Under the pieces are notes generated by a model. It was not told the origin of the DNA and made no database searches. It was given only the letters and a program-made list of their open reading frames with translations. Source: Chloroflexota bacterium (GTDB lineage Bacteria > Chloroflexota > Dormibacteria > CF-121). Taken from it: 32,031 bases of DNA. Positions 1,892-28,700 of the stretch are shown here, in pieces. The stretch is taken from assembly GCA_005881425.1 (NCBI GenBank), contig VBIC01000067.1:1-32031 (forward strand). The letters are read 5' to 3'. Position numbers and translations under genes: made by a program. Position 1 is the stretch's first letter, and each line of letters opens with the position of its first letter.

Positions 1892-3430
1892 GTGACCGAG
1901 CCGCGCACCCAGGAGGGGGACGACGCGCGCGACCTGGCCGGTTTCGGCTACCGGCAGGAGCTCAAGCGTATCCTGGGCGTCTACTCCAGCTTCGCGGTCG
2001 CCTTCTCCTACATCTCCCCCTCGACCGGCATCTTCACCCTGTACGCGCTGGGGCTGGGCCTGGCGGGCGGCTTCTTCTTCTGGAGCTGGCCGATCGTCAT
2101 TCTCGGTCAGTTCCTGGTGGCCCTCAACTTCGCCGAGGTCAGCTCGCACTTCCCGGTGGCGGGCTCCGTCTATCAGTGGAGCAAGTACCTGGCCAACCGG
2201 CACTACTCCTGGTTCAACGGCTGGATCTACCTATTCGCCGGGATCCTGACCGTCACCGCGGTCGACCTGACGGTGCCCATCGTACTGGTCCCCTTCCTCA
2301 ACGGCCTCGGCCTCAGCATCCCGAGCGGTTTCTGGACGCCGATCGTCGTGGGACTCCTGGTCCTGCTCAGCACCACGTTGCTCAACGTCTTCGGGGTCCG
2401 GCTGGTGTCGATCGTCAACAACACGGGCGTCGTCTTCGAGATCCTGGGGATGGTGGTCTTCGCCCTCGTGCTGCTGATCTTCTTCCACCACCAGTCGCCC
2501 AGCATCCTGACCGACACCCGCTATCTCGGCTCAGGATTCGGTAACGCCAGCGGCGTCTTCCTGGCCGCGATGTTCATGTCCCTGTTCGTGGTCTACGGGT
2601 TCGACACGGCCAGCACGCTGGCGGAGGAGACCAGGAACCCGCGCCGGGAAGCCCCCAGGGCGGTGCTGGCCTCGGTGATCGGCGCCTTCGTCATCGGCAC
2701 CATCTTCCTGCTGGCCACCATCCTGGCCATCCCGGGTGACGCCAATAAGTTCATCACCGATACGGCCGGCGGCAAGGCCGCCCCGCCGGTGGACATCATC
2801 ACCGGCAACTTCGGAGCCGGCAGCCTGGGCTCAGAGCTGTACCTGTTCGTGGTCTTCGCCGCCATCTACGTCTGCTGCCTGGCGATCCAGACCTCGACCA
2901 TCCGCCTGGCCTTCGGCATGGCCCGCGACGGCAAGCTCCCCTTCGGCCGGATCTACAACAGGGTCAGCCCTTCGCTGCACACTCCGGTCGGCACCTGCAT
3001 CGTGATCGGGCTGCTTTCGGCGATCCCCGTCTTCTACGCGGGCGCCGGCACGGTCGCGATCTCGGCGACCTGCATGATCTACCTCTCCTACTTCCTGGGC
3101 AACCTCGCCATCCTGATCGCCCGGGGCAAAGGCTGGCCCAAGGCCGGTGCTCCCTTCCGGCTGCGTGGATGGGGCGCGGTGGTCAACGTCCTGGCCCTGG
3201 TCTGGGGTGGAAGCATGCTGGTCAACTTCCTCTGGCCGCGCCCGGGAACGATCATCAACCCCAACACCAGCGAACTGCCCGGGCTGGCCGGCATCCCGCT
3301 CGTCGGGAACGTCCCTATCGTCGAGCTGACCATCGGGGTCGTGGTCCTCGTCGGCCTGGTCTATTACCTGATCGCTCAGGTCAACAAGCCGGCGCAGCCA
3401 CTTCCACAAGAGGCGGCCGCTTCGGCCTAG
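1892..3430 (+). CDS. APC-superfamily permease, ACT (amino acid/choline/GABA) type
   Basis: A 512-residue membrane protein with about 12 predicted helices. The soluble N-terminus leads into GFGYRQELKRILGVYSSFAV and FSYISPSTGIFTLYALGLGL, the hallmark first-helix region of the amino acid-choline-transporter/GABA permease branch of the APC superfamily. The VVYGFDTASTLAEETRNPRR motif after TM6 also fits that branch. It should sit in the cytoplasmic membrane and import or exchange an amino acid or amine; the substrate is unknown. The GTG at 1892 is the first start in frame and has no good Shine-Dalgarno sequence; an AGGAGGGG at 1910-1917 lies inside the reading frame with no start codon after it. 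The gene is separated from the first permease by 140 bases with its own promoter-like boxes and ends at a strong hairpin. Confidence 0.85.
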   Translation: MTEPRTQEGDDARDLAGFGYRQELKRILGVYSSFAVAFSYISPSTGIFTLYALGLGLAGGFFFWSWPIVILGQFLVALNFAEVSSHFPVAGSVYQWSKYLANRHYSWFNGWIYLFAGILTVTAVDLTVPIVLVPFLNGLGLSIPSGFWTPIVVGLLVLLSTTLLNVFGVRLVSIVNNTGVVFEILGMVVFALVLLIFFHHQSPSILTDTRYLGSGFGNASGVFLAAMFMSLFVVYGFDTASTLAEETRNPRREAPRAVLASVIGAFVIGTIFLLATILAIPGDANKFITDTAGGKAAPPVDIITGNFGAGSLGSELYLFVVFAAIYVCCLAIQTSTIRLAFGMARDGKLPFGRIYNRVSPSLHTPVGTCIVIGLLSAIPVFYAGAGTVAISATCMIYLSYFLGNLAILIARGKGWPKAGAPFRLRGWGAVVNVLALVWGGSMLVNFLWPRPGTIINPNTSELPGLAGIPLVGNVPIVELTIGVVVLVGLVYYLIAQVNKPAQPLPQEAAASA

Positions 3431-3775: not shown

Positions 3776-3981
3776 ATGCCGCGCGCGACCGTGCGGCTGA
3801 CGTTCCGCGGCGACAGCTGGGCAAGGACTACCGCGTGGTCACCAACATCAAGCGGGCCCAGGTGGACGAGGGGGCCGGCTGGCTGGAGGTTGAGCTGGAG
3901 GGACGCTCAGAGGACGTCGAGGCGGCCCTCGCCTACTGCGCCAGCCGCGGCATCGACGTGGAGCGGGTAACGGCCCCATGA
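3776..3981 (+). pseudogene. NIL-domain protein gene, frameshifted
   Basis: The ATG at 3776 opens a frame reading MPRATVRLTF, the usual start of NIL-domain proteins, but the rest of the domain continues in another frame: from about 3817 it reads LGKDYRVVTNIKRAQVDEGA and runs through [20 protein letters not shown] to a TGA at 3979-3981. That TGA overlaps the mnmA ATG (ATGA), supporting the second frame as the true end. NIL proteins normally have about a dozen residues between LTF and LGKDY; here only 11 bases remain, consistent with a loss of about 25 bases (3n+1). The NIL domain is a small ligand-binding ferredoxin-like fold known from MetNI transporters and sulfur-amino-acid genes. It could be a genuine mutation, an assembly error, or a shorter protein starting at CTG 3817 or GTG 3835. 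Confidence 0.65.
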
Positions 3982-5060
3982 AGGTGGCCGTGGCCATGAG
4001 CGGCGGCGTCGATTCCTCGGTCGCCGCCGCGCTGCTGCGCGACGAGGGGCACCAGGTCTTCGGGCTGACGCTCCAGCTCTGGCCCAAGGAGATGGCCGCC
4101 CGGGACTTCGACCGGCATCACGGCTGCTGCTCGCTGGACGCGGTCGAGGATGCGCGCCGGGTCGCGTCACGACTGGGCATCCCCTACTACGTGCTCAACT
4201 TCGAGGAGGGCTTCCGCCGCTCGGTCATCGACCCCTTCACCGAGGCCTACCTGTCGGGGCGCACGCCCAACCCCTGCATCCGCTGCAACGAGCAGGTCAA
4301 GTTCGGGCTGCTGCTGCGCAAGGCGCTGGCGCTGGGGGCCGGGGCGCTGGCGACCGGGCACTACGCTCGGATCGAGTCGAGCGAGGGCGAGTACGTCCTG
4401 CGCAAGGCCGTGGACGAGCGCAAGGACCAGTCCTACGTCCTCTACCAGCTGGGGCAGCGCGAGCTCGGCGCGGTCCTGTTCCCGGTGGGCGGGATGCTCA
4501 AGGCGCAGGTCCGGGAGCGGGCCCGCACACTCGGCCTGCCGACCGCGGACAAGGCGGAGAGCCAGGAGATCTGCTTCGTCAGCGAGGGCAGCTACCGCAG
4601 CCTGCTCAAGGAGCGGTTCGCGGCCCGCCTGCTGCCCGGGCCGATCGTGGACGCCCAGGGGCGCGAGGTGGGGCGCCACGCCGGGATCGCCCTCTACACC
4701 GTCGGCCAGAGGTCGGGGCTGCAGCTGCGGTCGGGCACGCCGTCCGGCCCGCCGCGATACGTGACCGGGATCGAGCCCGGCAGCAACACGCTCCACGTGG
4801 GTCCCGCCGAGGACCTGCTGCGCGACCGCTGCGAGCTGGAGGACGTTCGCTACGTGGCGGCCCGGCGGCCCCGAGCCGCGTTCGCGGCCCAGGTCAAGGT
4901 TCGCTCCCACGCCGTCGAGGCGCCGGCCCGCGTGGTCCCGCTCGGGGATCGCGCCCGCATCCAGTTCGCGCAGCCGCAGCGCGCCCTCACCCCCGGACAG
5001 GCCGCTGTCTTCTACCACGGCGACCGGGTGATCGGTGGCGGCGCCATCGCGGCCGCGTGA
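3978..5060 (+). CDS. mnmA: tRNA-specific 2-thiouridylase MnmA
   Basis: A 360-residue protein, the usual length for MnmA, which installs the 2-thio group on U34 of Lys, Glu and Gln tRNAs in the cytosol. The ATP-pyrophosphatase P-loop SGGVDSS is at residues 8-14. The two catalytic cysteines are present: C103 in NPCIRCN and C199 in SQEICFV. TGHYAR (126-131), [10 protein letters not shown] (149-158) and the GQR.GL central motif are also intact, and the C-terminal beta-barrel follows. The start codon overlaps the stop of the NIL-domain frame. In most bacteria sulfur reaches MnmA from IscS, often via Tus proteins; the upstream MoaD-like carrier raises the possibility of another route (inference). 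A GTG inside the stop region starts the next gene. Confidence 0.95.
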
Positions 5061-5383
5061 ACGGGGGCGAGGTCGCCCGCCAGCTGCTCCTGCACCTGGC
5101 GCAGGTGGCGCTGGTCTGGCTGATCCTGCTGGGCGGGGTCGTCTCCGCGGCGACGGCCGTCCGGGGCCGCCCCGCCTACTGGCTGGGTGTCGCCGGGTCG
5201 GTGCTGATCGTCTTCGGGTTGATCCTCGGGCCGGGATTCCTGCCGGGCAGCGTGACCGGCGTGGCGATCGGCGCCGGGATCGCGCTGGCCATCTTCGGCG
5301 TGGCCCTCGACCTCCTCCTCGGACCTCCTCCGGCGGCGGCCGGCCCGAGGGCCGGGGAGAGTCTCGACTCACGCTTCGAATGA
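5057..5383 (+). CDS. Small membrane protein of unknown function
   Basis: A 108-residue protein whose GTG start overlaps the mnmA stop (GTGA). It has three hydrophobic stretches (about residues 10-33, 40-58 and 64-88), then a Pro/Ala-rich polar tail ending [12 protein letters not shown] do not recognise a family; it is probably a three-helix inner-membrane protein co-translated with mnmA. Confidence 0.65.
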
Positions 5384-5405: not shown

Positions 5406-6182
5406 ATGATCGCGACCGACAAGTACATGAGCGCGCCCATCGTGGCGCGCACCGACCATGCGCCAACCCTCTGGTCGATCCGGATCAAGACGCCAGACCC
5501 GCTGCCGTTTCGCGCCGGCCAGTACGTAGCCTTCGGGCTGCTCAACGGCGAGAAGGTGCTGGAGCGCGCCTTCTCGATCGCCTCCAGCCCCTATGAGGAA
5601 GAGCTGGAGTTCTTCATCGAGCGGGTCGCGGACGGGGCTCTCTCGCCTCAGCTCTACCAGCTGCAGGTGGGCGACCGGGTGCAGATGCGCCGCAAGGCGA
5701 AGGGCGTCTTCAACCTGGACCACAAGTCCGGACACAAGCAGCATTTCCTGGTCTCGACCGTCACCGGGATCGCGCCCTACATCAGCTACGTCCGGACCAT
5801 GATGCGCGACCTGGAGCAGGGCCGGCTCGAGGAGCCTTTCCGCCTGGTCATCCTCCAGGGCAGCTCGCGCTCGGACGAGTTCGGCTACGACGAGGAGCTG
5901 CGCTGCTGCGCCCGGAGCGCCTCCTGGCTTACCTACATCCCGACCGTCAGCCGTCCCTGGGAGGATCCCGGCTGGGCGGGGGAGCGGGGCCGGGTCGACG
6001 ACCTGGTCCGCAAGTACACCGACACCATGCGGCTCGACCCCGAGACCACGACCGCCTACCTCTGCGGCAACCCGGGCATGATCGTCAACGCCCGCGACAT
6101 CCTGCGGCGCCGCGGCTTCAAGACGGAATCGATCAAGGAGGAGACCTACTGGGCGCCCGGCGAGGGTGAGGTCGAGTACTGA
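5406..6182 (+). CDS. Ferredoxin-NADP+ reductase-like flavoprotein (Fpr type)
   Basis: A 258-residue protein of bacterial Fpr-type length. FAD-binding motif RAFSIASSP is at 54-62, preceded by the FRAGQYVAFGL strand. The NAD(P)-binding loop is STVTGIAPYISYVR (117-130), with Val where the usual TGTGIAP has Gly. AYLCGNPGMI (217-226) precedes the C-terminal EETYW (245-249), which normally stacks on the flavin. Enzymes of this family pass electrons between NADPH and ferredoxin or flavodoxin in the cytosol. The next gene starts at the base after its stop, and five complex-I-membrane-arm-like genes follow without a gap, so it is likely co-transcribed and may be the electron input or output of that assembly (inference). 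No ferredoxin gene lies nearby. Confidence 0.85.
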   Translation: MIATDKYMSAPIVARTDHAPTLWSIRIKTPDPLPFRAGQYVAFGLLNGEKVLERAFSIASSPYEEELEFFIERVADGALSPQLYQLQVGDRVQMRRKAKGVFNLDHKSGHKQHFLVSTVTGIAPYISYVRTMMRDLEQGRLEEPFRLVILQGSSRSDEFGYDEELRCCARSASWLTYIPTVSRPWEDPGWAGERGRVDDLVRKYTDTMRLDPETTTAYLCGNPGMIVNARDILRRRGFKTESIKEETYWAPGEGEVEY

Positions 6183-6716
6183 GTGGCGGCGCTCACCTTC
6201 CTCTTCGCCCTGCTGGCGGTGGCCGGCGCCGGAGCCGCGGTCCTCTATCCGGGCCTGCGCCGGAGCGGGCTGGCGCTGGCGGCGACCAACCTGTTCGTGG
6301 GCCTGGTCGCCCTGACCCTGCAGGCGGTCCCGGTCTTCCTGATGGAGGTGGTCGCCGCGCTGCTGCTGGCCGGGCTGGTCCAGGCTTTTCCCATCCGCGG
6401 CGCCGATCGCGCGCTCTGGCCCCCCGGCGGAGCCCTGGCGCCGCCGGCGGTCCTCTCGACGCTGGTCCTGGCCGGCCTGGCCTGGGTCGCCCTGCAGCCG
6501 GTCTGGTCCGCCTCACCCAACCGCGCCCTCAACCCGGCCGTCCTGCCCCAGGGGCAGCTGGTCGCCCTCGGCGCCGCCGTCCTCCTGGCGATCGCCGCCG
6601 CCCTGGCCGTGCTCACCCGCCGCGAGCCGCGCCGGGCGCAGCCGGTCGAGCAGCCGCCCCCTCGCCGGACCGCCTCCAGCACGGCGCGCCCCCCGCGTGG
6701 CCGAGGCCGCCGGTGA
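6183..6716 (+). CDS. NuoJ-like membrane protein
   Basis: A 177-residue protein starting at GTG 6183 directly after the FNR-like stop. It has about four or five membrane helices and a basic Pro/Arg-rich tail (PPRRTASSTARPPRGRGRR). The N-terminal half (FLFALLAVAGAGAAVLYPGL, then NLFVGLVALTLQAVPVFLME) resembles the first three helices of NuoJ/ND6, the complex I subunit whose TM3 pi-bulge helps couple quinone reduction to proton pumping. The usual VYxGA motif of that helix is absent; the matching stretch reads MEVVAALLLAGLVQAF. Assignment rests on this weak similarity, the size, and position just before NuoK-, L-, M- and N-like genes. Confidence 0.6.
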   Translation: MAALTFLFALLAVAGAGAAVLYPGLRRSGLALAATNLFVGLVALTLQAVPVFLMEVVAALLLAGLVQAFPIRGADRALWPPGGALAPPAVLSTLVLAGLAWVALQPVWSASPNRALNPAVLPQGQLVALGAAVLLAIAAALAVLTRREPRRAQPVEQPPPRRTASSTARPPRGRGRR

Positions 6717-7009
6717 CGGCTGTGGCGCTGCTCGCCGCGGCCTGCCTGTTCGCCCTCGGCTGCTTCGGCGTCCTCGTCCGCCGGCAGCCGGCCGGCGTCG
6801 TGATGGCGGCCCAGCTGCTCTGGCTGGCGGTGGTGCTGGTGCTGGTGGCGGTCAACCAGCCGGCGGGCCGGCTGAACCGCGGCGAGGGATTCGCCCTGCT
6901 GATCGCGGTCGCGGGGCTGGCCCAGGTCGCCGTCGGCCTGGCCCTGGCCCAGCATGCCGGCCCGGATGGCCGGGAGCGCGAGGAGGCGCGGCCTGGCCGC
7001 GCCGGCTAG
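6713..7009 (+). CDS. NuoK-like membrane protein lacking both key glutamates
   Basis: A 98-residue, three-helix protein whose GTG start overlaps the previous stop. It lines up along its length with NuoK: CLFALGCFGVLVRRQPAGVV matches ILFVLGLTGLVIRR in E. coli, and AVAGLAQVAVGLALAQ matches LAAAEASIGLALLLQ. In NuoK, glutamates in TM2 (E36) and TM3 (E72) form part of the proton path. Here both are glutamine: Q34 (codon 6812-6814) and Q71 (codon 6923-6925). The tail is polar and charged (GREREEARPGRAG). The NuoK identity is well supported by size, topology and gene order; proton transport by the usual route is unlikely. Confidence 0.75.
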   Translation: MTAVALLAAACLFALGCFGVLVRRQPAGVVMAAQLLWLAVVLVLVAVNQPAGRLNRGEGFALLIAVAGLAQVAVGLALAQHAGPDGREREEARPGRAG

Positions 7010-7015
7010 GCCCCG

Positions 7016-8947
7016 ATGACGGGGGTGCTGCTCGCCGCCAGGGGACCGCTCGAGACCTGGAGTCCGACGCTGATGGCGCAGCTGGCGCTCCTGCTGCCCG
7101 CCCTCGCGGCTCTGGTGGTGGTGACCTTCACCATCGATTCCCGGCGGGCGACCGCGGTCACGGCCTTCCTCGGAACCGCCGGGATGCTCCTCTGCGCCGG
7201 CGTCATGGCCGCGATCGAGGTGGCCCACCCGGGTCACGCCGAGACCAGCTTCACCTTCCTCCAGTTCTTCACCGGCCAGTCGGGGACGGCCTCCGAGTTC
7301 GGCCTCAATCTGGGCGTGGTCGCCGATCCGCTGGGCGCCGTCATGCTGCTTGCGCTCGCTCTCACCAGCCTGCTGGTCATCGTCTCCGCCCTCGATTCGG
7401 TTCGCCGCGCCGATGGCTTCATCCGGCTGGTGCTGGTCAGCCTGACCGCCACCTTCGCCATGGCCGGGGTGATCCTCTCTCCCAACTATTTCGAGACGCT
7501 CCTGTTCTGGATGCTGCTGAGCGCGAGCGGCTACCTGCTGGTCGGCCACTGGTGGGGCCTGCCCGCGGCCGCGGCGGCGGCCCGGCGCGCCTTCCTTTAC
7601 CTGGCCCTGGGAGACGCGCTGCTGCTGGTCGCCATCGTCTATGCCTTCTTCCGCTTCCAGGACCTCAACTTCGGCCACCTGAGCCTGGCCTACCGCGGCG
7701 GCAAGGTCAGCTCCAACGGCCTGCTGATCCTGGCCCTGCTGGTCCTGGGAGCGGCCGTGAGCAAGTCGGCCCAGCTGCCGCTGCACGCCTGGCTGACCGA
7801 CGCGGTCGAGGCCCCGGCCCCGGCCGCGGCGCTGGTGCTGGGTCCCACCCTGGCCAGCTCCGGCGTCTACCTGGTGGCGCGCACCTATGACCTCTTCCAT
7901 GCCAGCCCGCGCGCGCTGGCGGTGCTGGCGGTGGTCGGTGGCGCGAGCGCGATCATGGCGGCGGTCTGGGCGCTGGGCCAGCGCAACCTCAAGCACGGCC
8001 TGGCCTTTGCCGCCATGAGCAACCTCGGCCTGATCCTGCTGGCGCTGGGGCTGGGCGCCTTCGGCGGCGCCCTGCTTCATCTCTTCACCTCGGTCTTCGC
8101 GGTTGCGCTCCTGTTCCTGGCGGCCGGCGCGGTCGGCGCCGGCCTGCGTACCGAGCGCCTGGCGGAGATGGGTGGACTCCTGCGCCGCATGCCGGTCACC
8201 GGCTGGACCACGCTGCTCGCCATGGCCTCGCTCTGCGGCATCCCGCCCCTCGCCGGGTCGTGGAGCAAGGGTGCCATATGGGCCTCGCTGCTGAGCCCGC
8301 TGAAGGAGCCCGGACCGATCGCCCTGGGACTGGCTTCGCTGCTCCTGGCCGCCGCCCTTACCCGGCTCTTCGCCGCGGCCTTCCTCGGCGAGACCGCCCG
8401 GCGGCGCCGTTTCGAGCCGGCCAGGATCCAGGACGCCGCCGGCCGGGTGCGCACGGCGCTGATCCTGCTTGCCATCCCGGTCGTGGTCGCCGGCGTCTGG
8501 GCGCTCCCACTGGGCGGCCACGGCTTCCTGAACGTGGTCCGTTTTCCCGGGCTCAAGCCCACCCCTCTGACCGCCGCAGGGGTCGGGCTGGCGAGCCTGC
8601 TGGGGCTGCTGGGCGCCGGGATCGGCTGGCTCGGCGGCCGGGCATGGCGCTGGCCGGAGCCGGTGGGTGCGGCGCTGGAGAGCTCCTTCTACCTGGGCCA
8701 TGCGGTCGCCGCCGCCGCCCGGAGGGGCTCGGGCGCCGCCGCGTCCGGCCTGGGCTGGATCGAGCGCAGGGTCCTGGACGGCGCCCTGGCCGGCTTCGAG
8801 GAAGCGGGGGCGCTCGCCGGCCGGGTGCCGCGCCGGCTGCGAGCCGGCCGCGCCGAGCAGAGCTCCCTCGGCCTCTTGGCCGGGGTGGTGCTGGTGATCG
8901 CCCTTGCCCTCCTGCTCGTCGCCTGGGCCGCCAGGGTGACCGGGTGA
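7016..8947 (+). CDS. NuoL-like antiporter-family membrane protein, divergent
   Basis: A 643-residue protein with about 15-16 helices, NuoL length. The antiporter-family core is clear: SKSAQLPLHAWLTDAVEAPA (249-268), SSGVYLVART (281-290), NLKHGLAFAAMSNLGLILLA (324-343), ALLHLFTSVF (352-361) and CGIPPLAGSWSKG (407-419). The C-terminal amphipathic/anchor region (from about 555) is also NuoL-like. Lys250 and Lys418 match the TM7 and TM12 lysines. Other pump residues are lost: the TM5 Glu is Met166 (LFWMLL), the ALIHAA His is Leu275, and the HLFTH..FK His and Lys are Ser359 and Val363. It sits between K- and M-like genes and overlaps the M-like start by 4 bases. Confidence 0.85.
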   Translation: MTGVLLAARGPLETWSPTLMAQLALLLPALAALVVVTFTIDSRRATAVTAFLGTAGMLLCAGVMAAIEVAHPGHAETSFTFLQFFTGQSGTASEFGLNLGVVADPLGAVMLLALALTSLLVIVSALDSVRRADGFIRLVLVSLTATFAMAGVILSPNYFETLLFWMLLSASGYLLVGHWWGLPAAAAAARRAFLYLALGDALLLVAIVYAFFRFQDLNFGHLSLAYRGGKVSSNGLLILALLVLGAAVSKSAQLPLHAWLTDAVEAPAPAAALVLGPTLASSGVYLVARTYDLFHASPRALAVLAVVGGASAIMAAVWALGQRNLKHGLAFAAMSNLGLILLALGLGAFGGALLHLFTSVFAVALLFLAAGAVGAGLRTERLAEMGGLLRRMPVTGWTTLLAMASLCGIPPLAGSWSKGAIWASLLSPLKEPGPIALGLASLLLAAALTRLFAAAFLGETARRRRFEPARIQDAAGRVRTALILLAIPVVVAGVWALPLGGHGFLNVVRFPGLKPTPLTAAGVGLASLLGLLGAGIGWLGGRAWRWPEPVGAALESSFYLGHAVAAAARRGSGAAASGLGWIERRVLDGALAGFEEAGALAGRVPRRLRAGRAEQSSLGLLAGVVLVIALALLLVAWAARVTG

Positions 8948-10572
8948 CCGGCTTCTCGCTGCTCATGGCCGCCGCCTCGCCCAGCGCGACCTCCTCGCCG
9001 CTGGCCACGCCCAGCGCCTCGCCGCTGCCCTCGATCGTCCCCAGCCTGCCCATCCCCAGCGGCACGCCGGCCCCGGTCACGCTGGCCAACCCCACGCTGC
9101 CCGCGCTCCTGCTCAGCGGCATCGTCTGGATCCCGCTCATCGTCGGGCTCGTCCTCCTGCTCCTGCCCGCGCGCAGCGAGGCGGAGCGGGCCCGGGTCAG
9201 GATCGGGGCCATCGTGGGCAGCGGCTTCGTGCTGGTACTGGCCGTGCTGATGTGGTACGGCTTCGCCGACCAGGGGGGCACCCTGGCCTACGAAGAGCAG
9301 CGGGCCTGGCTTCCCCAGCTGGGGTCGAGCTATCATCTCGGCGTCGACGGGGTGAGCCTGGCGCTCCTGCTGCTGACCTCGCTGCTGAGCCTTGTCGCCG
9401 TGCTCGCCTCCAGCCGCGTGCGCGAGCGGGCTGGAGCCTACTTCGCCCTCCTCCTGCTCTTCGAGACCGGCCTCAACGGGGTGCTGGCGGCGGTCGACTA
9501 CCTCCTGATCCTCCTTTTCTGGGCCATGCCGGTGGTGGCCGCCTTCCTCCTGATCGCGGGCTGGGGCGGACCCGGACGGTCGCGGGCAGCCCTCAAGGTC
9601 CTGGCCTTCGGCCTGGCCTCGACGGCGCTCCTCCTGGTGGCGGTGCTGATCCTCGCCGGGCAGAGCTCACCACCCACCTTCGACCTCCTGAGCCTGCACA
9701 ACACCGTGCTCCACGGGCCGGCGACGGGGCTGCTCTTCTGGCTCTTCTTTGCCGCCTTCGCCATCCTGCTCCCAGCCGTCCCCCTGCACACCTGGTTCAT
9801 CGACGCGGTGGCGGAGGCGGGCGCGCCGGTGGCGGCGCTGATCGGCGGCGCGCTGCCGGCGCTCGCCGGCTACGGGCTCTATCGCACCGTGCTGGGCGAC
9901 TTCCCCGCCGACCTGCACCGGATGCGCGGGGCGATCCTGGTCCTGACCCTGGCCACCCTGATCTGGAGCGGACTCTCCGCGCTGGGCCAGGACGACCTCA
10001 AACGCGCGATCGCGTTCCTCGCCCAGAGCCGCTCCAGCCTGGTCCTTCTCGCCGTCGTCTCCGCCGCGCCGGTGGCGCTCAACGGGGGCGTGGTCCTGAT
10101 CGTCGCCAGCGGGCTGGGCGTGGCCCTGCTCCTGCTCACGGCGGGGATGATCCAGGAACGCACCGGCACCCATTCCGTCCGGGCACTCTCCGGGCTGGCC
10201 GCGCGCCTGCCGCGAGCCGCGATCCTCTATCTCGTGGGCGGACTGGGTCTTCTCGGCCTTCCCGGACTGGCCGGGTTCGTCGGGATGGTCCTGGTCTTCC
10301 TCGGCGCCTACCCGGTGGACCGCACCACCACCACCATCGCCATCCTGGCGTCCGCGCTCCTGTCCGGAGGCCTGGTCGTCACCTCCAGCGAGCGGATCTT
10401 CTTCGGCCCCCTTCCCGACGGCTTCGCCCGGCTGCGCGACCTGGGCACGCTTGAGCTGACCTACGCGGTCCTGCTGGTGGCCGTGATCGTGTTGCTGGGC
10501 GTCTTCCCGACCCTGCTGGCGAACGACGTCAACTTCGGCATCCTCAGCCTGCTGGCCCGGGGCGCGGGATGA
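8944..10572 (+). CDS. NuoM-like antiporter-family membrane protein, all key charges lost
   Basis: A 542-residue protein starting at GTG 8944 (GTGA overlap). A 50-residue Ser/Pro/Thr-rich segment precedes about 13-14 helices, which is unusual for NuoM. Family motifs remain: YHLGVDGVSLALLLLTSLLS (130-149), LLPAVPLHTWFIDA (275-288), AGYGLYR (308-314), GMIQERTGTH (401-410) and GLPGLAGFVG (438-447). Against E. coli NuoM, E144 is Ala194 (LFWAM), K234 is Leu275, K265 is about Ala306, H348 is Ser389 and E407 is Met448. These are the residues shown or thought to carry protons in complex I. The protein is therefore a structural relative unlikely to pump by the known path. It overlaps the N-like start by 4 bases. 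Confidence 0.85.
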   Translation: MTGFSLLMAAASPSATSSPLATPSASPLPSIVPSLPIPSGTPAPVTLANPTLPALLLSGIVWIPLIVGLVLLLLPARSEAERARVRIGAIVGSGFVLVLAVLMWYGFADQGGTLAYEEQRAWLPQLGSSYHLGVDGVSLALLLLTSLLSLVAVLASSRVRERAGAYFALLLLFETGLNGVLAAVDYLLILLFWAMPVVAAFLLIAGWGGPGRSRAALKVLAFGLASTALLLVAVLILAGQSSPPTFDLLSLHNTVLHGPATGLLFWLFFAAFAILLPAVPLHTWFIDAVAEAGAPVAALIGGALPALAGYGLYRTVLGDFPADLHRMRGAILVLTLATLIWSGLSALGQDDLKRAIAFLAQSRSSLVLLAVVSAAPVALNGGVVLIVASGLGVALLLLTAGMIQERTGTHSVRALSGLAARLPRAAILYLVGGLGLLGLPGLAGFVGMVLVFLGAYPVDRTTTTIAILASALLSGGLVVTSSERIFFGPLPDGFARLRDLGTLELTYAVLLVAVIVLLGVFPTLLANDVNFGILSLLARGAG

Positions 10573-11996
10573 GCTTCAGCATCCAGAACGCCCTCGCCTT
10601 CACCCCGGAGTGGTGGCTGCTGCTGGGGGCCGCCGTGGCCTTTACGCTGGGCCGGGTTCGGACGGGTTCGGAGGACCAGACCAGCGTGGTGGGGCTGATC
10701 GCCGTCGTCCTCGCGCTGGCCGGGCTGCTGACCCAGCTGCGCTCCAGCATCACCATCTTCGAGGGCGCCTTCGTGGTCGACGGCTACACCCGCCTGCTGC
10801 AGGGGATCGTCCTCGCCTCTGCGGCGGCGTGCCTGCTGCTGGCGCTTGCCGACCGCACCTGGACGCCCGCGCCCGACTTCGCCGGCTTCCTCCTGCTGGC
10901 CACCACCGCCGCCATGCTGATCGCGGGAGCCGCCGACCTGGTCTCGCTGGCGCTGGGCGTCGCCCTGCTCGGGATGGGCCTGGGCGTGATGGCGGTCGAG
11001 GCGCGGCCGTCGTCGACGCCGGCGGCGGGCGTGGGCGCCTTCATCGCCTCAACCCTGGCCGCGGCCGTGATCGCCTACGGCTTCGCGCTCCTCTACGGGC
11101 TGAGCGGTGAGACCGCGCTCGCCGCCGTCGGCCGCCGCCTGGGGCAGACAGGGTCGCGGCCGGCCCTGGCGGTGGCGCTGGCCCTGGTGCTGGCGGGCTT
11201 CGGCGTACTGATCGGCATGGTGCCGGTCCAGTGGGGGATGCAGTCGATCTTCCAGCGCGCTCCTCTGCCGGTATCCGCCTTCACGGGGTCGGTCGCCGTC
11301 ACCGCCGCGCTGGGCGGGCTGATGCGCGTCGTCACAGGCGTCGCCGCCTCCGGCTCCGCCGTCTCCCTGCTGCTGGCGATCCTGGCGGCCGCGACCATGA
11401 CCGGAGCCACGGTGGCGGCCCTGGGCGAGCGCAGCCTGCGCCGGCTCCTGTCCTGGATCCTGGTCGGCCAGGCCGGCTTCGGGCTGGCGGCGCTGGTCGG
11501 CGCGCGGCAGGGCGGAGTGGCGGCGCTCCTGGTCTTTTCGGCCAGCCTCGCCGCCGGCCTGCTGGCCGCGGTCGCGGCCCTGGTCGCCTATTTCCACCGG
11601 GTGCACAGCGACCGGGTCGCGGACATCAGCGGCATGGCCAGCTACGCGCCGGCCCCGGCCGCGGTCCTGGCGCTCGCGCTCGCGTCGCTGAGTGGAATTC
11701 CGCCGCTGGCCGGCTTCTTCGGCAGGCTCCTGGTGCTGCGGGCGGTGGTCGACGCCGGCTACAGCTGGCTGGCCCTGATCGGGGTAGCCAGCACGGTGCT
11801 GGCCGCATTCAGCGCCCTGCGGCTGGTCCGCGCCGTCTTCCTCGACCCGCCGGTGTTCGAGGTCCATCCCGTCCTGCCCCACCGGGCCCAGGGGACTGCG
11901 CTCGGCCTGGGCACGCTGGCGGTGGTCGCGTTCGGCGCCTTCCTCGGGCCCCTGCTCGGCTTCGCCACGGTGGCAGCGAGAGCGGTCCTGCCATAA
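10569..11996 (+). CDS. NuoN-like antiporter-family membrane protein, divergent
   Basis: A 475-residue protein with about 13-14 helices, NuoN length. Recognisable NuoN-like parts are the VVDGYTRLLQGIVLASAAAC stretch (69-88), the weakly kept TM7-TM8 segment (IGMVPVQWGMQSIFQRAPLP, 215-234) and SGIPPLAGFFGRLLVL, the TM12 motif. In NuoN the TM5 Glu (E133) corresponds to Ala132 (LGVALL), TM7 Lys (K217) to Leu214, and TM8 Lys (K247) to about Val244. The TM12 Lys appears as Arg (FFGRLL), the only conservative change. The HxWxPDVYxGAP loop of normal NuoN is rewritten. It is the last gene of the FNR-J-K-L-M-N operon; the next gene starts 35 bases later. Confidence 0.75.
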   Translation: MSFSIQNALAFTPEWWLLLGAAVAFTLGRVRTGSEDQTSVVGLIAVVLALAGLLTQLRSSITIFEGAFVVDGYTRLLQGIVLASAAACLLLALADRTWTPAPDFAGFLLLATTAAMLIAGAADLVSLALGVALLGMGLGVMAVEARPSSTPAAGVGAFIASTLAAAVIAYGFALLYGLSGETALAAVGRRLGQTGSRPALAVALALVLAGFGVLIGMVPVQWGMQSIFQRAPLPVSAFTGSVAVTAALGGLMRVVTGVAASGSAVSLLLAILAAATMTGATVAALGERSLRRLLSWILVGQAGFGLAALVGARQGGVAALLVFSASLAAGLLAAVAALVAYFHRVHSDRVADISGMASYAPAPAAVLALALASLSGIPPLAGFFGRLLVLRAVVDAGYSWLALIGVASTVLAAFSALRLVRAVFLDPPVFEVHPVLPHRAQGTALGLGTLAVVAFGAFLGPLLGFATVAARAVLP

Positions 11997-12031: not shown

Positions 12032-14209
12032 ATGACAAGGACTCGGCGGGCCAAAGCGACCCGCGGTGGGCGCGGCCGCCTGATCCGGCGCTCCCTGCTG
12101 GGGCTGCTCGCCATCACTGCCGCCCTGACCGTCGCCGGCGGCGGCCTGCTCTACACCTACGCCGGCGAGCTTCCCAGCCTCGACCAGGTGAGCGCCAGCG
12201 CCCTGCCCCAATCCACCAGGATCTATGCCCGCGACGGCTCGACCCTCCTCGACGAGCGCTTCTACGAGCGCCGCACGGTGGTGCCGCTCCACGCGGTCGC
12301 CTGGGACCTGCGTCACGCCACGATCGCGATCGAAGACCGGGACTTCTACAGCCACGGGGCGGTCAATCCCCTGCGCACGCTGGCCGCCGGGATCTACGAC
12401 CTGGCTCATCGCCGGGCCGCGCAGGGCGGCAGCACAATCAGCCAGCAGCTGGTGAAGAACACGCTGCTCCAGTCGTCCGGGGTCGCGCCCCGCAGCCTGG
12501 ACCGCAAGCTGAAGGAGCTACTGCTCTCGATGGAGCTGGAGCGGCGCTACTCCAAAGACCAGATCCTGGGGCTCTACCTGAACACCATCTTCTACGGCAA
12601 CGGCGCCTTCGGCATCGAGAGCGCCTCCCAGACCTACTTCGGCGTCCCGGCGCGCAGCCTCGACCTGGCTCAGGCCAGCCTGCTGGCCGGGCTGCCCCAG
12701 GCCCCCTCCGCCTTCGACCCTTTCTCAGGCCAGGGGTTGGCGCGGGCCCGCGCTCGCCAGTCCGCCGTGCTGCGGTCGATGGTGCGCGATCATTACGTCA
12801 GCCCCCAGGCGGCGGCCCGGGCCGCGTCAGAAGACCTGCGTCCGGCGCTGGCCCGGGCCCACCAGGCGATGGCAGGCGGCCGGCCCATGCTGGCGCCTCA
12901 CTTCGTGGACTACGTCTGGTCCCAGCTCCAGCAGCAGTTCGACCCCAGCTTCCTGCTGCGCGGAGGGCTCCGGATCGTCACCACCCTGGACGCGCCGACC
13001 CAGGCCAGGGCGCAGCAGGCGCTCCACGACGGCGTCAACCGTTTCGCCAGAGGCTACAGGGTCAACAACGGGGCCATGCTGGTGCTGGATCCTCATACCG
13101 GCGCCATCCTGGCCATGGTCGGGAGCGCCGACTACTTCAGCCAGGCGATCGGCGGCGAGGTCAACTACACCGTCGCGCCGCGTCAGCCCGGGTCGTCCTT
13201 CAAGCCTTATACGTACGTGACCGCGCTCATGAACGGGTGGACGCCTGCGTCCCCGTTGAAGGACGAGAACGGAGCGCACGCCTTCCCCGGCTACCCGGTC
13301 CACGACTGGGACTCGCGCGAGCTCGGCGTGATCAGCCTGCGCCAATCGCTGCAGCTCTCGCGCAACATCTCGTCGGTGCACCTCTTCCAGGACGTCGGGA
13401 TGGCCAGGGTGCTGGGCGTGGCACGCCAGCTGGGGATCAGCACCGACCTGGAGAGCAGCCTGCCCACCACCCTCGGCGCCAGCCCGGTCTCCATGATCGA
13501 GCACCTGGCCGCCTACAGCGCCTTCGCCAATGGTGGCACCCGGGTACGGCCGTTCGGCATCATCGAGGTGCGGGACCAGGACGGCGCCCTCCTCGAGCGC
13601 AACGATCCCAAGGCGGACAGCGGGGAGCGTGTGCTGCCCAGGTCGGCGGCCTACATCCTGACCGACATCCTCAAGGGCGCGGTCCACCCGGCGCTGAGGG
13701 TTCCAGTCGCCGCCAAGTCAGGGACCACCACCGACTTCAAGGACGCCTGGTACGTGGGTTACACCAGCGACCTGGCGGTCGCGGCCTGGATGGGCCGGAC
13801 GGTGATGACGCCCACCCCGCACAACGAGTCGATGAACGGGCTCTGGGGAGAGACCGGCCCGGGGGCCGTCTGGCACGCCTTCATGACCTCCTATTACTCC
13901 TCCCGCCGTCCCGCCGACTGGACCCGTCCGGCGGAGGTGATCATGCAGGCGCTCTGCAAGGCGACCGGGCAGCCCGCCGATTCCGCCGCGCCGGCCGGTT
14001 CCACCGTCCAGGAGCTCACGGCCAGCGCCGGGCTGCCCTCGACCGCGGCTCCCTGCGGCGGCGCGGCGGGCGTCGCCGGCGACGGGGGCGCGTCAGCCGG
14101 GCCGCCGCCCTCGCCCGCCGCCAGTCCCGGCCTGCCCGGTGAGGGCGTGACCCCGTCCCCGAGTCCGTTGCTGATCCTGCCTTCGATCCCGCCCGGCCTG
14201 TCGGGATAA
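12032..14209 (+). CDS. Class A penicillin-binding protein (transglycosylase/transpeptidase)
   Basis: A 725-residue bifunctional peptidoglycan synthase. After a basic N-terminus and one membrane anchor (about 21-43) comes the GT51 glycosyltransferase domain: IEDRDFYSHGAV with catalytic E101, QGGSTISQQLVKN (131-143) and RKLKELLLSMELERRYSKDQ (158-177). The transpeptidase domain follows, with SSFK at 388-391 (active serine S388), SRN at 443-445 and KSGTT at 562-566. It polymerises and cross-links glycan strands outside the membrane. The C-terminal 80 or so residues are Ala/Ser/Pro/Gly-rich, ending in PSPSPLLILPSIPPGLSG, with no recognised domain. The ATG at 12032 lacks a visible ribosome site; it is chosen because it directly precedes the basic membrane anchor. 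Confidence 0.93.
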   Translation: MTRTRRAKATRGGRGRLIRRSLLGLLAITAALTVAGGGLLYTYAGELPSLDQVSASALPQSTRIYARDGSTLLDERFYERRTVVPLHAVAWDLRHATIAIEDRDFYSHGAVNPLRTLAAGIYDLAHRRAAQGGSTISQQLVKNTLLQSSGVAPRSLDRKLKELLLSMELERRYSKDQILGLYLNTIFYGNGAFGIESASQTYFGVPARSLDLAQASLLAGLPQAPSAFDPFSGQGLARARARQSAVLRSMVRDHYVSPQAAARAASEDLRPALARAHQAMAGGRPMLAPHFVDYVWSQLQQQFDPSFLLRGGLRIVTTLDAPTQARAQQALHDGVNRFARGYRVNNGAMLVLDPHTGAILAMVGSADYFSQAIGGEVNYTVAPRQPGSSFKPYTYVTALMNGWTPASPLKDENGAHAFPGYPVHDWDSRELGVISLRQSLQLSRNISSVHLFQDVGMARVLGVARQLGISTDLESSLPTTLGASPVSMIEHLAAYSAFANGGTRVRPFGIIEVRDQDGALLERNDPKADSGERVLPRSAAYILTDILKGAVHPALRVPVAAKSGTTTDFKDAWYVGYTSDLAVAAWMGRTVMTPTPHNESMNGLWGETGPGAVWHAFMTSYYSSRRPADWTRPAEVIMQALCKATGQPADSAAPAGSTVQELTASAGLPSTAAPCGGAAGVAGDGGASAGPPPSPAASPGLPGEGVTPSPSPLLILPSIPPGLSG

Positions 14210-14226
14210 TCTAAGGTAAGGCGGAC

Positions 14227-14244
14227 GCGGCGCTCGGGCGCCGC
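14227..14244 (+). terminator. Short GC hairpin between the PBP and LysE genes
   Basis: GCGGCGC and GCGCCGC pair over a 4-base loop, 18 bases after the PBP stop, with no U-tract. A -10-like GATAAT (14205-14210) overlaps that stop, 17 bases after TTCGAT (14182-14187), so the hairpin could instead lie in the leader of the LysE-type gene. Confidence 0.35.
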
Positions 14245-14266
14245 TCAAACCAGAGGGGGTGCCCTG

Positions 14267-14887
14267 ATGCTGGCCGCGTTCCTGCAGGGGTTCGGTCTCG
14301 ACCTGAGCCTGATCGTCGCCATCGGAGCCCAGAACGCCTTCGTGCTGCGCCAGGGCCTGCGCCGGCTGCACGTCTTCGCCACCGCCCTGGTCAGCTCCAT
14401 CTGCGACGTCACCCTGATCGTCCTGGGAGTCGGTGGAGTCAGCTCGCTGCTGGGGATCATTCCGGTGGTCGCGAGGGTCGCCACCGCCGGCGGAGCGCTC
14501 TTCCTCTTCTACTACGGCCTGCGATCGTTCCGGTCAGCGCTCACCGACTCCTCGCTCAACGTCCGCAACGGGTCGGAAAACTCGACCCGGCTCAAGGAGA
14601 CGATCCTGACCGCGCTCGCTCTCAGTCTCCTGAATCCGCACGTCTGGCTCGATACCGTGGTGCTGGTGGGAACCGTCGGAACCCATTTCCCTCCCAGCCA
14701 GCGGCTCATTTTCACGGTCGGTGCTGGACTCGGTTCCACCGTCTGGTTCTTCGCCCTCGCGTACGGCGCCTCACAGCTCTGGCGGCTCTTCGAGCATCCT
14801 CTGTCCTGGCGGATCCTCGACTCCGTGATCGGCTGCATCATGTGGACCATCGCCTTCTTCCTGGTGCGCTCGCTGCTCCATTTTTGA
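14267..14887 (+). CDS. LysE/ArgO-family amino acid exporter
   Basis: A 206-residue protein with about six membrane helices, the normal LysE size. The N-terminal signature AIGAQNAFVLRQGLRR (residues 19-34) is diagnostic for LysE/ArgO, which export basic amino acids such as lysine and arginine out of the cytoplasm. The later NPHVWLDTVVLVGTVG motif (about 124-139) also fits. The ATG follows GAGGGGG about 8 bases upstream. No LysG/ArgP-type regulator is adjacent. The next gene is a diiron N-oxygenase-like gene, so export of a modified amino compound is conceivable but unproven. Confidence 0.9.
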   Translation: MLAAFLQGFGLDLSLIVAIGAQNAFVLRQGLRRLHVFATALVSSICDVTLIVLGVGGVSSLLGIIPVVARVATAGGALFLFYYGLRSFRSALTDSSLNVRNGSENSTRLKETILTALALSLLNPHVWLDTVVLVGTVGTHFPPSQRLIFTVGAGLGSTVWFFALAYGASQLWRLFEHPLSWRILDSVIGCIMWTIAFFLVRSLLHF

Positions 14888-14902
14888 AAGCCGATGCGGG
14901 CC

Positions 14903-14932
14903 TTGACGCCCGAGGAACCCATGGACTAAGGT
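14903..14932 (+). promoter_or_regulatory. Possible promoter of the AurF-like gene
   Basis: TTGACG (14903-14908), 18-base spacer, TAAGGT (14927-14932). Transcription would start near 14939, about 36 bases before the ATG at 14975. Confidence 0.4.
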
Positions 14933-14974
14933 GATGCCTTACCGGATCGCTCGTTCGTGATCGCGGGGGGCCGC

Positions 14975-15902
14975 ATGAATCGCAATCACGTCCTGTCGCA
15001 GGCGGTCGATGCCCGCTTCTACGAGAGCAAGCTCAAGGACTGGTACGAGAGGTCCAGCATCCGGACCAGTCCACGGCGCCTCCTGCTCAAAGAAGACGCT
15101 GAGGGGAAGGTCTACTTTCCTCCCGATCTGGTCCCGATCATCGGCCATCGACTGGTCCGAGACCAGGGTCAGGACGTCGCCCAGCGGTTGATCGTCCAGC
15201 ACCTCTACGCCTATCTGGACTTCACGGCCGCCCTCGAGCACGACGTCGTCAATCGGGTCACGCAGCGGATCGCCCAGCAGCGTGCGGGTTTCGAGCTGCC
15301 GCAGGCGATGGTGATGGACGCCTACAAGATCTACTGCGACGAGGCCTACCACGCGCTGTTCTCGGCCGACATCCGGGAACAGATCCACGCCGCCACCACG
15401 GTAGCGCCGCTCGGCTCCATGGGCGACTCCACCTGCCTGCGCCGCCTGCAGGTGGTCCTGGCAGGGCTTTCGCCCGATCTCCAGTGGCCGGCGGAAGTCT
15501 GCTTCTCGATCGTCTCCGAGACCCTGATCTCGGCCATCCTGAGCCGGGTGCCCCGCGACGCGAGAGTGGTCCCGACGATCCGGCTGGTGGTCGCCGACCA
15601 CGCCCGGGACGAGGCCCGCCATCACGCCTACTTCGCCAACCTTCTGGAGCGTGCCTGGCCGCAGCTGGACGCCGACCGCAAGGCCGTGCTCGGTCCGCTG
15701 CTGGCGGACTTCGTCCTGGTCTTCCTCGAGCCGGACCTCGCCGCCGTGCGAGGTCACCTGCTCCGAGACCTATCCGCAGGACCAGGTGCTGGCCTCGGTC
15801 CGCCGCGCCGCTCGGGCCACCCTGCGTCTGTTCGAACGCCAGGGCATCTTCGAGGACCCGGCGACCCGTGCGGCCTTCCAGGCCACCGGCCTCCTGGGCT
15901 GA
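14975..15902 (+). pseudogene. AurF-like diiron N-oxygenase, frameshifted near the C-terminus
   Basis: The protein reads as an AurF-type (p-aminobenzoate N-oxygenase family) diiron enzyme. Candidate iron ligands are all present: Glu in FTAALEHDVV, Glu and His in YCDEAYHALF, Glu in SIVSETLISA, and His/Glu/His in ADHARDEARHHAYF. Such enzymes oxidise aryl- or alkyl-amines to hydroxylamino or nitro groups. After FLEPDLAAVR (about 15755) the frame is lost; the expected C-terminus, CSETYPQDQVLASVRRAARA and on to FERQGIFEDPATRAAFQ, is in the +1 frame and stops at 15900-15902. The usual linker between these parts is also missing, fitting a short deletion of 3n+2 bases. Start chosen at ATG 14975 after GCGGGGGG; GTG 14957 is possible. 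It may be a real lesion or an assembly error. Confidence 0.65.
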
Positions 15903-15907
15903 CGCCC

Positions 15908-16681
15908 GTGCCGCGAAGTCCCGCGGGCGCGGCGCCGGGAAGGCTGGAGACGGCGGCTGGCGCCGTTCTGTGCTGTCCGGTCGACCACGGATCGCTGCTC
16001 CGGGAGCCGGACGGGCATCGCTGCCGCGCCTGCCACCGTCTCTTTAAGGAGGTCGACGGGCTCCCCGACCTGGCCTACTCGCCGCTGCCCGACGTCGACG
16101 GCCACGTGCCCTACCTCTGGAGCGACGTCTTCCACCTGGAGAACATCCTGCGTCAGCTCGTCCGTCCCCAGAGCGTTGTCCTGGAGGTCTGTTCGGGACC
16201 CAACATCGTGGTCCCGCTGCTGCTCAAGCGGCTGGACCGGGCGGTGACCTATCTCTCGATCGGGATCAACTCCGCTCACCTCCTCCAGCAGAGGCAAGGC
16301 GTGAACTTCCCGGTCCAGAGCATCCGGGGCGACGCCACCGCCCTGCCGCTGGCGGCGCAGAGCGTCGACCTCTACGTCGGCCATCACGCCATCAACGACA
16401 TCTGGCTGACCAAAGGGGAGGCGGGGGTGACGCGCTCCTACCACGAGATGCACCGCGTCCTCAAGGCCGACGGCTACCTGGTGCAGTCCGACTGCGTCCT
16501 GCAGCACGACAGCCGGGTCGGCGATCCATCGACCAAGCTGATCGGGCTGGGCAGCCTGGCCCGGTTCCTGGACGAGCGCCGCTACCGGTGGGAGCAGAGC
16601 AGCGGCGGCGAGCTCGACTGGATCGTTGCCTCGCCGACCCAGAGCCTCCGGATCGAGCCGTCCCCCGACTACTCCATCTAA
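15908..16681 (+). CDS. SAM-dependent methyltransferase with Trm112-like zinc N-terminus
   Basis: A 257-residue protein from GTG 15908, five bases after the AurF-like stop. Residues about 20-50 carry a Trm112-like pattern: CCPVDHGSLL, then CRACHRLFKEVDGLPDL. The class I methyltransferase core follows: VLEVCSGPNIVVPLLL as the SAM-binding glycine motif, RGDATALPLAAQSVDLYVGH as motif II-III, and EMHRVLKADGYLV. It should methylate a small molecule or protein in the cytosol; the acceptor is unknown. The upstream frame runs into this gene without a stop and would make an apparent 574-residue fusion, but that results from the AurF frameshift. Close coupling suggests both act on the same product (inference). 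Confidence 0.8.
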   Translation: MPRSPAGAAPGRLETAAGAVLCCPVDHGSLLREPDGHRCRACHRLFKEVDGLPDLAYSPLPDVDGHVPYLWSDVFHLENILRQLVRPQSVVLEVCSGPNIVVPLLLKRLDRAVTYLSIGINSAHLLQQRQGVNFPVQSIRGDATALPLAAQSVDLYVGHHAINDIWLTKGEAGVTRSYHEMHRVLKADGYLVQSDCVLQHDSRVGDPSTKLIGLGSLARFLDERRYRWEQSSGGELDWIVASPTQSLRIEPSPDYSI

Positions 16682-22870: not shown

Positions 22871-23608
22871 ATGGCCCAGCCTGAGCCCGACGCGATCCGG
22901 ACTCCGGTCCTGCACGACCACGACCAGCCGCAGACTGGAATCGGGCGGCGCCTGCGCGACATCATCCTCGGGGGCCAGGACGGGCTGGTCAACGTGCTCG
23001 GCCTGGTGCTGGGGGTGGCCGCCGCCACCCAGAAGACGCAGGTCATCATCGTCGCCGGCCTGGCCGCCACCTTCTCGGAGTCGATCGCCATGGGCGGCGT
23101 CGCCTACACCTCCGCGCTCGCCGAGCGGGACTATTACCTCTCCGAGCTCAATCGTGAGAAGGATGAGATAGAGGAGGTCCCGGACGTCGAGACCGAGGAG
23201 GTCCGCGAGATCTTCCGCGACAAGGGGCTGAAGGGCGAGACCCTGGAGCGCGTCGTCAAGGACATCACGTCGGACAAGCAGGTCTGGCTGGAGGTCATGA
23301 TGCGCGACGAGCTGCACCTCTCGCCGGTGTCGACCGCCGGGCTCACCGGCCGGGCGGTCCTGACCGGGGTCTCGACCCTGATCGGCTCGCTGATCCCGCT
23401 CGTCCCCTTCCTGATCCTGCCGGTCGTCCCGGCCACGATCGTCGCCATTCCACTGTGCGCCGCCGTCCTCTTCGGGGTCGGCGCCTACAAGGCGCTCACC
23501 CTGGTGGGGGACTGGCGGATGAGCGGTCTGCAGATGCTGATCATCGGCATGGCCTCGGCCTTCGCCGGCTACCTGATCGGCCGGCTGCTGCACGTCTCCG
23601 GGGCTTGA
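22871..23608 (+). CDS. VIT1/CCC1-family iron/manganese transporter
   Basis: A 245-residue protein. GQDGLVNVLGLVLGVAAATQ (about 36-55) and SESIAMGGVAYTSALAERDY (about 74-93) are the TM1 and TM2 signatures of the VIT1/CCC1 family, which move Fe2+ or Mn2+ across membranes. A charged cytosolic metal-binding helix domain follows (EKDEIEEVPDVETEEVREIF), then DELHLSPVSTAGLTGRAVLT and three more helices. The acidic central domain is as expected. AGAGGA lies about 9 bases upstream of the ATG. Together with the Fur-family gene 21 bases upstream it suggests a regulated metal-detoxification or storage unit. Confidence 0.9.
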   Translation: MAQPEPDAIRTPVLHDHDQPQTGIGRRLRDIILGGQDGLVNVLGLVLGVAAATQKTQVIIVAGLAATFSESIAMGGVAYTSALAERDYYLSELNREKDEIEEVPDVETEEVREIFRDKGLKGETLERVVKDITSDKQVWLEVMMRDELHLSPVSTAGLTGRAVLTGVSTLIGSLIPLVPFLILPVVPATIVAIPLCAAVLFGVGAYKALTLVGDWRMSGLQMLIIGMASAFAGYLIGRLLHVSGA

Positions 23609-28644: not shown

Positions 28645-28672
28645 TTGCCGGCTGTCCCGTCTGAGGTATGAA
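28645..28672 (+). promoter_or_regulatory. Possible promoter of the DUF2330-like gene
   Basis: TTGCCG (28645-28650), 16-base spacer, TATGAA (28667-28672). The leader would be about 22-26 bases and includes the AAGGAGG ribosome site. Confidence 0.35.
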
Positions 28673-28700
28673 GTCTCGACCCCGACAAGGAGGACGCGCC

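Follow-up and report, generated by a model that had tools for sequence, protein, structure and literature searches.

A complex I-type membrane arm without redox genes and without NuoM channel residues in a Chloroflexota genome

Introduction

A long-standing question about complex I is which residues of the membrane arm serve pumping and which serve assembly. Mutation of the conserved Lys and Glu residues in NuoL and NuoM affects the E. coli enzyme (PMC3046159), and even the exchange E407K lowers the pumping stoichiometry (PMC9271201). A NuoM-like gene in a genome of the Chloroflexota class Dormibacteria raises this question anew. A preliminary description reported that its product had lost every key channel residue and gained a Ser/Pro-rich N-terminus. 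Is this protein still a NuoM, does it stand alone, and what could an arm built with it be doing? The window, which is the whole stretch of DNA analysed here, has 32,031 nucleotides and lies on contig C150 of a draft genome of 2.9 Mb in 227 contigs (89.9% complete).

Results

Gene content of the cluster

Along the + strand of the window, the genes around the NuoM-like frame follow one another in this order:

3978..5060, + strand: MnmA, tRNA 2-thiouridine synthase (NF001138, 418.9 bits); anchors the synteny, lying upstream of remnant and intact complex alike
5057..5383, + strand: small hydrophobic, predicted membrane protein of 108 aa, its start overlapping the MnmA stop
5406..6182, + strand: FNR-type flavoprotein, ferredoxin/flavodoxin-NADP+ reductase family (PF00175 and PF00970)
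6183..6716, + strand: NuoJ-like, strongly diverged (by position and alignment to J of relatives)
6713..7009, + strand: NuoK-like (PF00420, 34.8 bits, above cut-off)
7016..8947, + strand: NuoL-like (NCBIfam NuoL profiles)
8944..10572, + strand: NuoM-like (TIGR01972, 334.8 bits, cut-off 263.8)
10569..11996, + strand: NuoN-like (NCBIfam profile and alignment)
12032..14209, + strand: class A penicillin-binding protein (PF00912 and PF00905), outside the module; the downstream neighbour in family f1

The FNR stop abuts the NuoJ start, and the frames overlap by 4 bases at J/K, L/M and M/N, as expected for a single FNR-J-K-L-M-N operon. Profile searches found none of NuoA, B, C, D, E, F, G, H or I at the cluster. 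A separate, canonical complex I cluster lies on contig C193 of the same genome; no second NuoH or NuoB was found in the 89.9% complete draft, the single copies of both being in the canonical cluster. Judged by this draft genome (90% complete), the arm has no set of NuoB, C, D, H and I encoded with it or for it, as complex I has. The small protein at 5057..5383 gave no Pfam match above cut-off. Counterparts stand next to MnmA in families f1 and f2, among them one at the intact locus of genome G020 described below, and the protein is a possible accessory subunit.

Residues and fold of the NuoM-like protein

The window protein is a NuoM by its match to TIGR01972 over the full length. It is predicted to adopt the antiporter-type multi-helix fold (AF2 pLDDT 85.8), and Foldseek gave target-normalised TM-scores of 0.96 to 6tjv_D and 0.90 to E. 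coli 3rko_C; the same fold is found in MrpD/MrpA of Mrp. The best PDB sequence match was NdhD of 6tjv. Alignment to E. coli NuoM (7p61_M) by phmmer, with a check of positions, reproduced exactly the five replacements that had been described: E144 by A194, K234 by L275, K265 by A306, H348 by S389 and E407 by M448. In the same alignment the sixth channel residue, H322, corresponds to R363, and window M retains none of the six proton-path residues of NuoM (E144, K234, K265, H322, H348, E407). An alignment restoring Lys or Glu at TM5, TM7, TM8 and TM12 was looked for and not found, and the loss of all key channel residues survived both profile and structure comparison. The loss is no peculiarity of one odd NuoM; it is shared by all five genes of the module (J, K, L, M, N) and by a clade of relatives.

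We compared window M with 25 pump-type NuoM proteins and with 38 M proteins of the second clusters, which are additional to canonical complex I, using residue tables that rest on MAFFT alignments. In 63 columns at least 24 of the 25 pump-type proteins are conserved; window M keeps 38 of these columns and none of the six that belong to the channel (hypergeometric p = 0.0026). Across the 38 second-cluster proteins, channel columns were kept at 18% vs 62% for all 63 conserved columns. Random column sets were as low as the channel columns in 62 of 100,000 draws, in a test that takes columns as exchangeable and in which five of the six channel columns came from the preliminary description, H322 having been added in this analysis. 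The columns never lost in second-cluster M are Gly, Pro, Asp, Phe and Leu. Channel residues are lost preferentially, and structural Gly, Pro and Asp are retained.

The other membrane subunits

The neighbouring subunits have lost residues as well. Window NuoK carries Q in place of both Glu residues that mark the complex I subunit (E36 and E72). NuoL keeps D178, K229, K305, H334 and K399 and has replaced E144 (M), H254 (L), H338 (S), K342 (V) and D400 (G); it also gave a weak match to DabB2. NuoN shows E133 to A, K217 to L, H224 to Q, K247 to V and K395 to R. Charged residues in the TM core are down from 15-16 to 11 in window M and from 12-15 to 8 in window L, and are lower in N too. NuoJ scored 131 bits against PF00499 in the intact G020 locus, 61 in G040, 30 in G019 and 25 in G003, and the window protein gave no match.

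An intact counterpart and the origin of the arm

The same locus is intact in G020, a genome of family f2. Beside MnmA it encodes the small membrane protein, an NDH-2-like protein, and NuoA, B, C, D, H, I, J, K, L, M and N, of which the NDH-2-like gene, NuoA and NuoB were recognised by eye in the translation. All six channel residues are present in G020 M, and among the second clusters examined this one alone has NuoH. A canonical complex is also present in this genome (L054). The NDH-2-like NADH dehydrogenase gene lies at 1985-3481 of L143, between the MnmA side and NuoA.

In the M tree, second-cluster M groups with that of G020 in a single clade (99/95), set apart from canonical M of the same class (100/99). 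The sister group of this clade consists of intact 11-subunit-type complexes of other Chloroflexota, including L065 and L073, where C, D, H, I, J, K, L, M and N stand in a row. The natural reading of gene order and tree is that an 11-subunit complex I would have lost its redox/quinone module in place, leaving the membrane arm of the window. The position of G020 in family f2 suggested several independent losses of A to I; these are not demonstrated, as an AU test did not reject a tree in which the second-cluster rows, G020 apart, are all in one clade (p = 0.255), which allows a single loss.

Distribution and selection

M homologues in family f1 share 49-53% identity and the same gene order. A search of 110 genomes of the class gave an M match in 109, more than one in most, and most of the 110 carry an M additional to the canonical one. 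Residues were read for the 38 second-cluster M from four families in a subset of these genomes: E144 was lost in 38 of 38, and all six channel residues were kept in 25 of 25 comparison M. Some relatives retain part of the path. In the sister genus, M still has K/R234, K265, H322 and D348, and L still has K229, D178, K399 and D400; M of f3 members carries R234, R265 and E or D407. Canonical complex I is also found in most genomes with a second arm; the drafts G024 and G056 have a second-type M and gave no NuoH match. One strong NuoH match was obtained in most class genomes and two in a few, with further matches at ~100 bits. These extra weak matches, in several f4 and f2 genomes, are probably group 4 hydrogenase-type subunits.

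Between close sister species of genus g4, dN/dS of the second cluster was 0.11-0.18 for L, 0.09-0.19 for M, 0.14-0.15 for N and 0.07-0.19 for FNR. These values overlap those of the canonical genes in the same genus (L 0.11-0.19, M 0.03-0.32, N 0.09-0.22), a rough range in which some comparisons include an upstream non-homologous frame or partial genes. Purifying selection maintains the second arm in the relatives tested. Close relatives of the window species are lacking; of 140 columns invariant in the rest of the family, window M retains 114 (81%), a value between those of its neighbours G001 (79%) and G002 (88%). The low dN/dS and the open frames disfavour a pseudogene.

The N-terminal tail of NuoM

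The Ser/Pro-rich N-terminus of the preliminary description is real: a stretch of ~50 residues rich in S/P/T/A precedes TM1 (68% S/P/T/A in residues 1-50), and canonical NuoM has no such extension. The sole in-frame starts before TM1 are GTG 8944, which overlaps the NuoL stop, and ATG 8965. As no further ATG, GTG or TTG occurs there, the extension is not removable by a later start. AF2 predicts residues 1-51 to be disordered (pLDDT <50), and the tail is probably disordered; it might tether a partner. What does not stand is the idea of a new gain tied to the residue loss, because G020 M, with its channel residues intact, begins with a similar Thr/Pro-rich stretch of ~40 residues, and we reject that link. 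Thr/Pro/Ser-rich tails of ~12-60 residues occur in most of the clade M inspected, with little or none in L037 and L042. By sequence comparison, the tail is an older, loosely kept feature unrelated to channel loss.

The FNR-type flavoprotein

The product of 5406..6182 has both the FAD- and the NAD(P)-binding domain of the FNR family (PF00970, PF00175). Its best NCBIfam profile is Fpr NF008178, below that profile's cut-off, and its best PDB relatives are the ferredoxin-NADP reductases 6rr3 and 1fdr. The gene stands where the intact G020 locus has NDH2-A-B-C-D-H-I; in those f1 clusters whose contig reaches this far, it is found between MnmA and J. In f1 its position within the operon, in the slot left by the lost genes, makes it the best candidate partner of the arm. 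The in-operon FNR is limited to this family; f2 and f4 FNRs, 44-52% identical, are encoded elsewhere in the genome. Against a partnership counts that the JKLMN arm itself has no redox centre, which leaves unexplained why an FNR would need it. In the f1 genome G003, ~3 kb separates FNR from J. This interval (L033, ~12800-15660) contains no recognised gene.

Discussion

We favour a non-pumping membrane scaffold, with the FNR-type flavoprotein as its putative partner in the window, a reading that draws on gene content, on synteny with the intact locus, on the residues lost and the fold predicted to remain, and on selection in the sister genus. In its fuller form, JKLMN would be the arm of a second, 11-subunit complex I whose redox half was lost and whose proton path was dismantled, with the scaffold kept and re-used; we give this account about an even chance. 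The quinone/iron-sulphur module and NuoH would have been deleted and the proton path taken apart, with the membrane scaffold held under purifying selection. The five proteins would still come together in the membrane as a JKLMN arm; this arm would pump no protons and may be re-used as a membrane platform. In f1 the adjacent FNR would dock on the arm as its likely partner and might exchange NAD(P)H electrons, in either direction, with ferredoxin, flavodoxin or a quinone-side acceptor, uncoupled from proton translocation. The redox half and the pumping residues are lost, yet selection persists, which points to a role different from ordinary proton pumping. In other families the arm is kept with no FNR in its operon, so the scaffold role would be older than the FNR partnership or independent of it. 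As sister species keep part of the path, some ion movement may still occur there.

Those retained residues also favour a different account, in which the arm still moves ions through Arg, Asp or other groups, as an Mrp-like or passive cation or proton conductance that is not redox-driven. The Lys, Arg, His and Asp positions kept in M and L of the sister genus, the Arg and Glu or Asp of f3 M, and the fold shared with MrpD/MrpA agree with it. Against this, none of the six window M positions is classically protonatable, R363 possibly excepted; N also lacks E133, K217 and K247, TM-core charges are down, E144 is lost in 38 of 38, and no Mrp-type partner subunits were identified beside the window arm. 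We regard ion conductance as unlikely. An arm that swaps onto the quinone module of canonical complex I, giving a low-gear or uncoupled complex with fewer protons per electron, seems less probable again. JKLMN is exactly the set that would need exchange, and canonical complex I co-occurs in most genomes with a second arm, but the two kinds of arm are deeply separated in the tree, G024 and G056 combine a second-type M with no NuoH match, and E. coli mutations at the conserved Lys and Glu of L and M affect enzyme function (PMC3046159).

Divergence is progressive from G020 to the window, and Pfam no longer recognises window NuoJ, which would suit a slowly decaying relic without function. Such a relic is quite improbable given strong purifying selection in sister species, equal to that on canonical Nuo genes, frames that almost all members keep open, and persistence in four families. 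An artefact of alignment, frame or start would have to be sought in the high GC content of the window and its long open frames on both strands. It can practically be dismissed, as the TIGR01972 score is above cut-off over the whole protein, AF2 and Foldseek agree on the fold, and the losses fall at the same positions in many genomes. Beyond the scaffold that we favour for the window, a class-wide pump-dead arm could be a new kind of membrane machine, in the window perhaps an NAD(P)H enzyme with a docked FNR, or else a low-gear arm that canonical complex I could take up in exchange; we hold this as a tentative idea, at less than even chances.

Among known systems, that of Desulfitobacterium hafniense (PMC11238625) has J, K, L, M and N homologous to those of the window; the window genes have the order and locus of the intact G020 copy, and the window clade adjoins intact 11-subunit-type complexes of other Chloroflexota. 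Unlike it, the window has no NuoA, B, C, D, H and I, has lost the channel residues and, as in f1, has an FNR in the operon. Canonical 14-subunit NuoM (TIGR01972) resembles window M in the full-length profile match and predicted fold, but window M is without the six channel residues, has a disordered tail by prediction and has no partner peripheral arm. A survey of prokaryotic complex I, as far as its text was available, reports many incomplete sets and does not describe an arrangement of the window type (PMC12361115). Literature searches, with subscription journals mostly outside their reach, found no published description of such an arm.

Mrp and membrane-bound hydrogenase modules are also related, and Mrp is a precedent for antiporter-type subunits that function without NuoB, D and I. 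The window sequence is NuoM-type, however: its best profiles are NuoL, NuoM and NuoN, and J-K-L-M-N is not the set MrpA-G. Antiporters keep the conserved Lys and Glu residues that the window arm has lost. The cyanobacterial NDH-1MS and DAB CO2-hydration complexes are precedents for the recruitment of antiporter-type subunits to other work, but no CupA/DabA-like partner was identified in the window operon.

For the question of pumping versus assembly, the class offers a natural experiment in which the Lys/Glu/His path is stripped and Gly, Pro and Asp positions are fixed. G020, with its intact complex at this locus, provides a ready comparison, and the arm could serve coupling models as a natural non-pumping mutant. 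The presence of nuoL, nuoM or nuoN in a metagenome-assembled genome is no proof of proton pumping.

Other features of the window

An Rfam search of the window found no RNA element. Upstream of MnmA, 1892-3430 encodes an amino acid permease like the urea carboxylase-associated permease TIGR03428, below cut-off. Further along, 14957-16681 is a single reading frame with both an AurF-type N-oxygenase (PF11583) and a methyltransferase (PF08241) domain, a VIT1-family protein (22871-23608) adjoins an ArsP_1 permease (23647-24816), and 28668-29783 encodes a DUF2330 protein.
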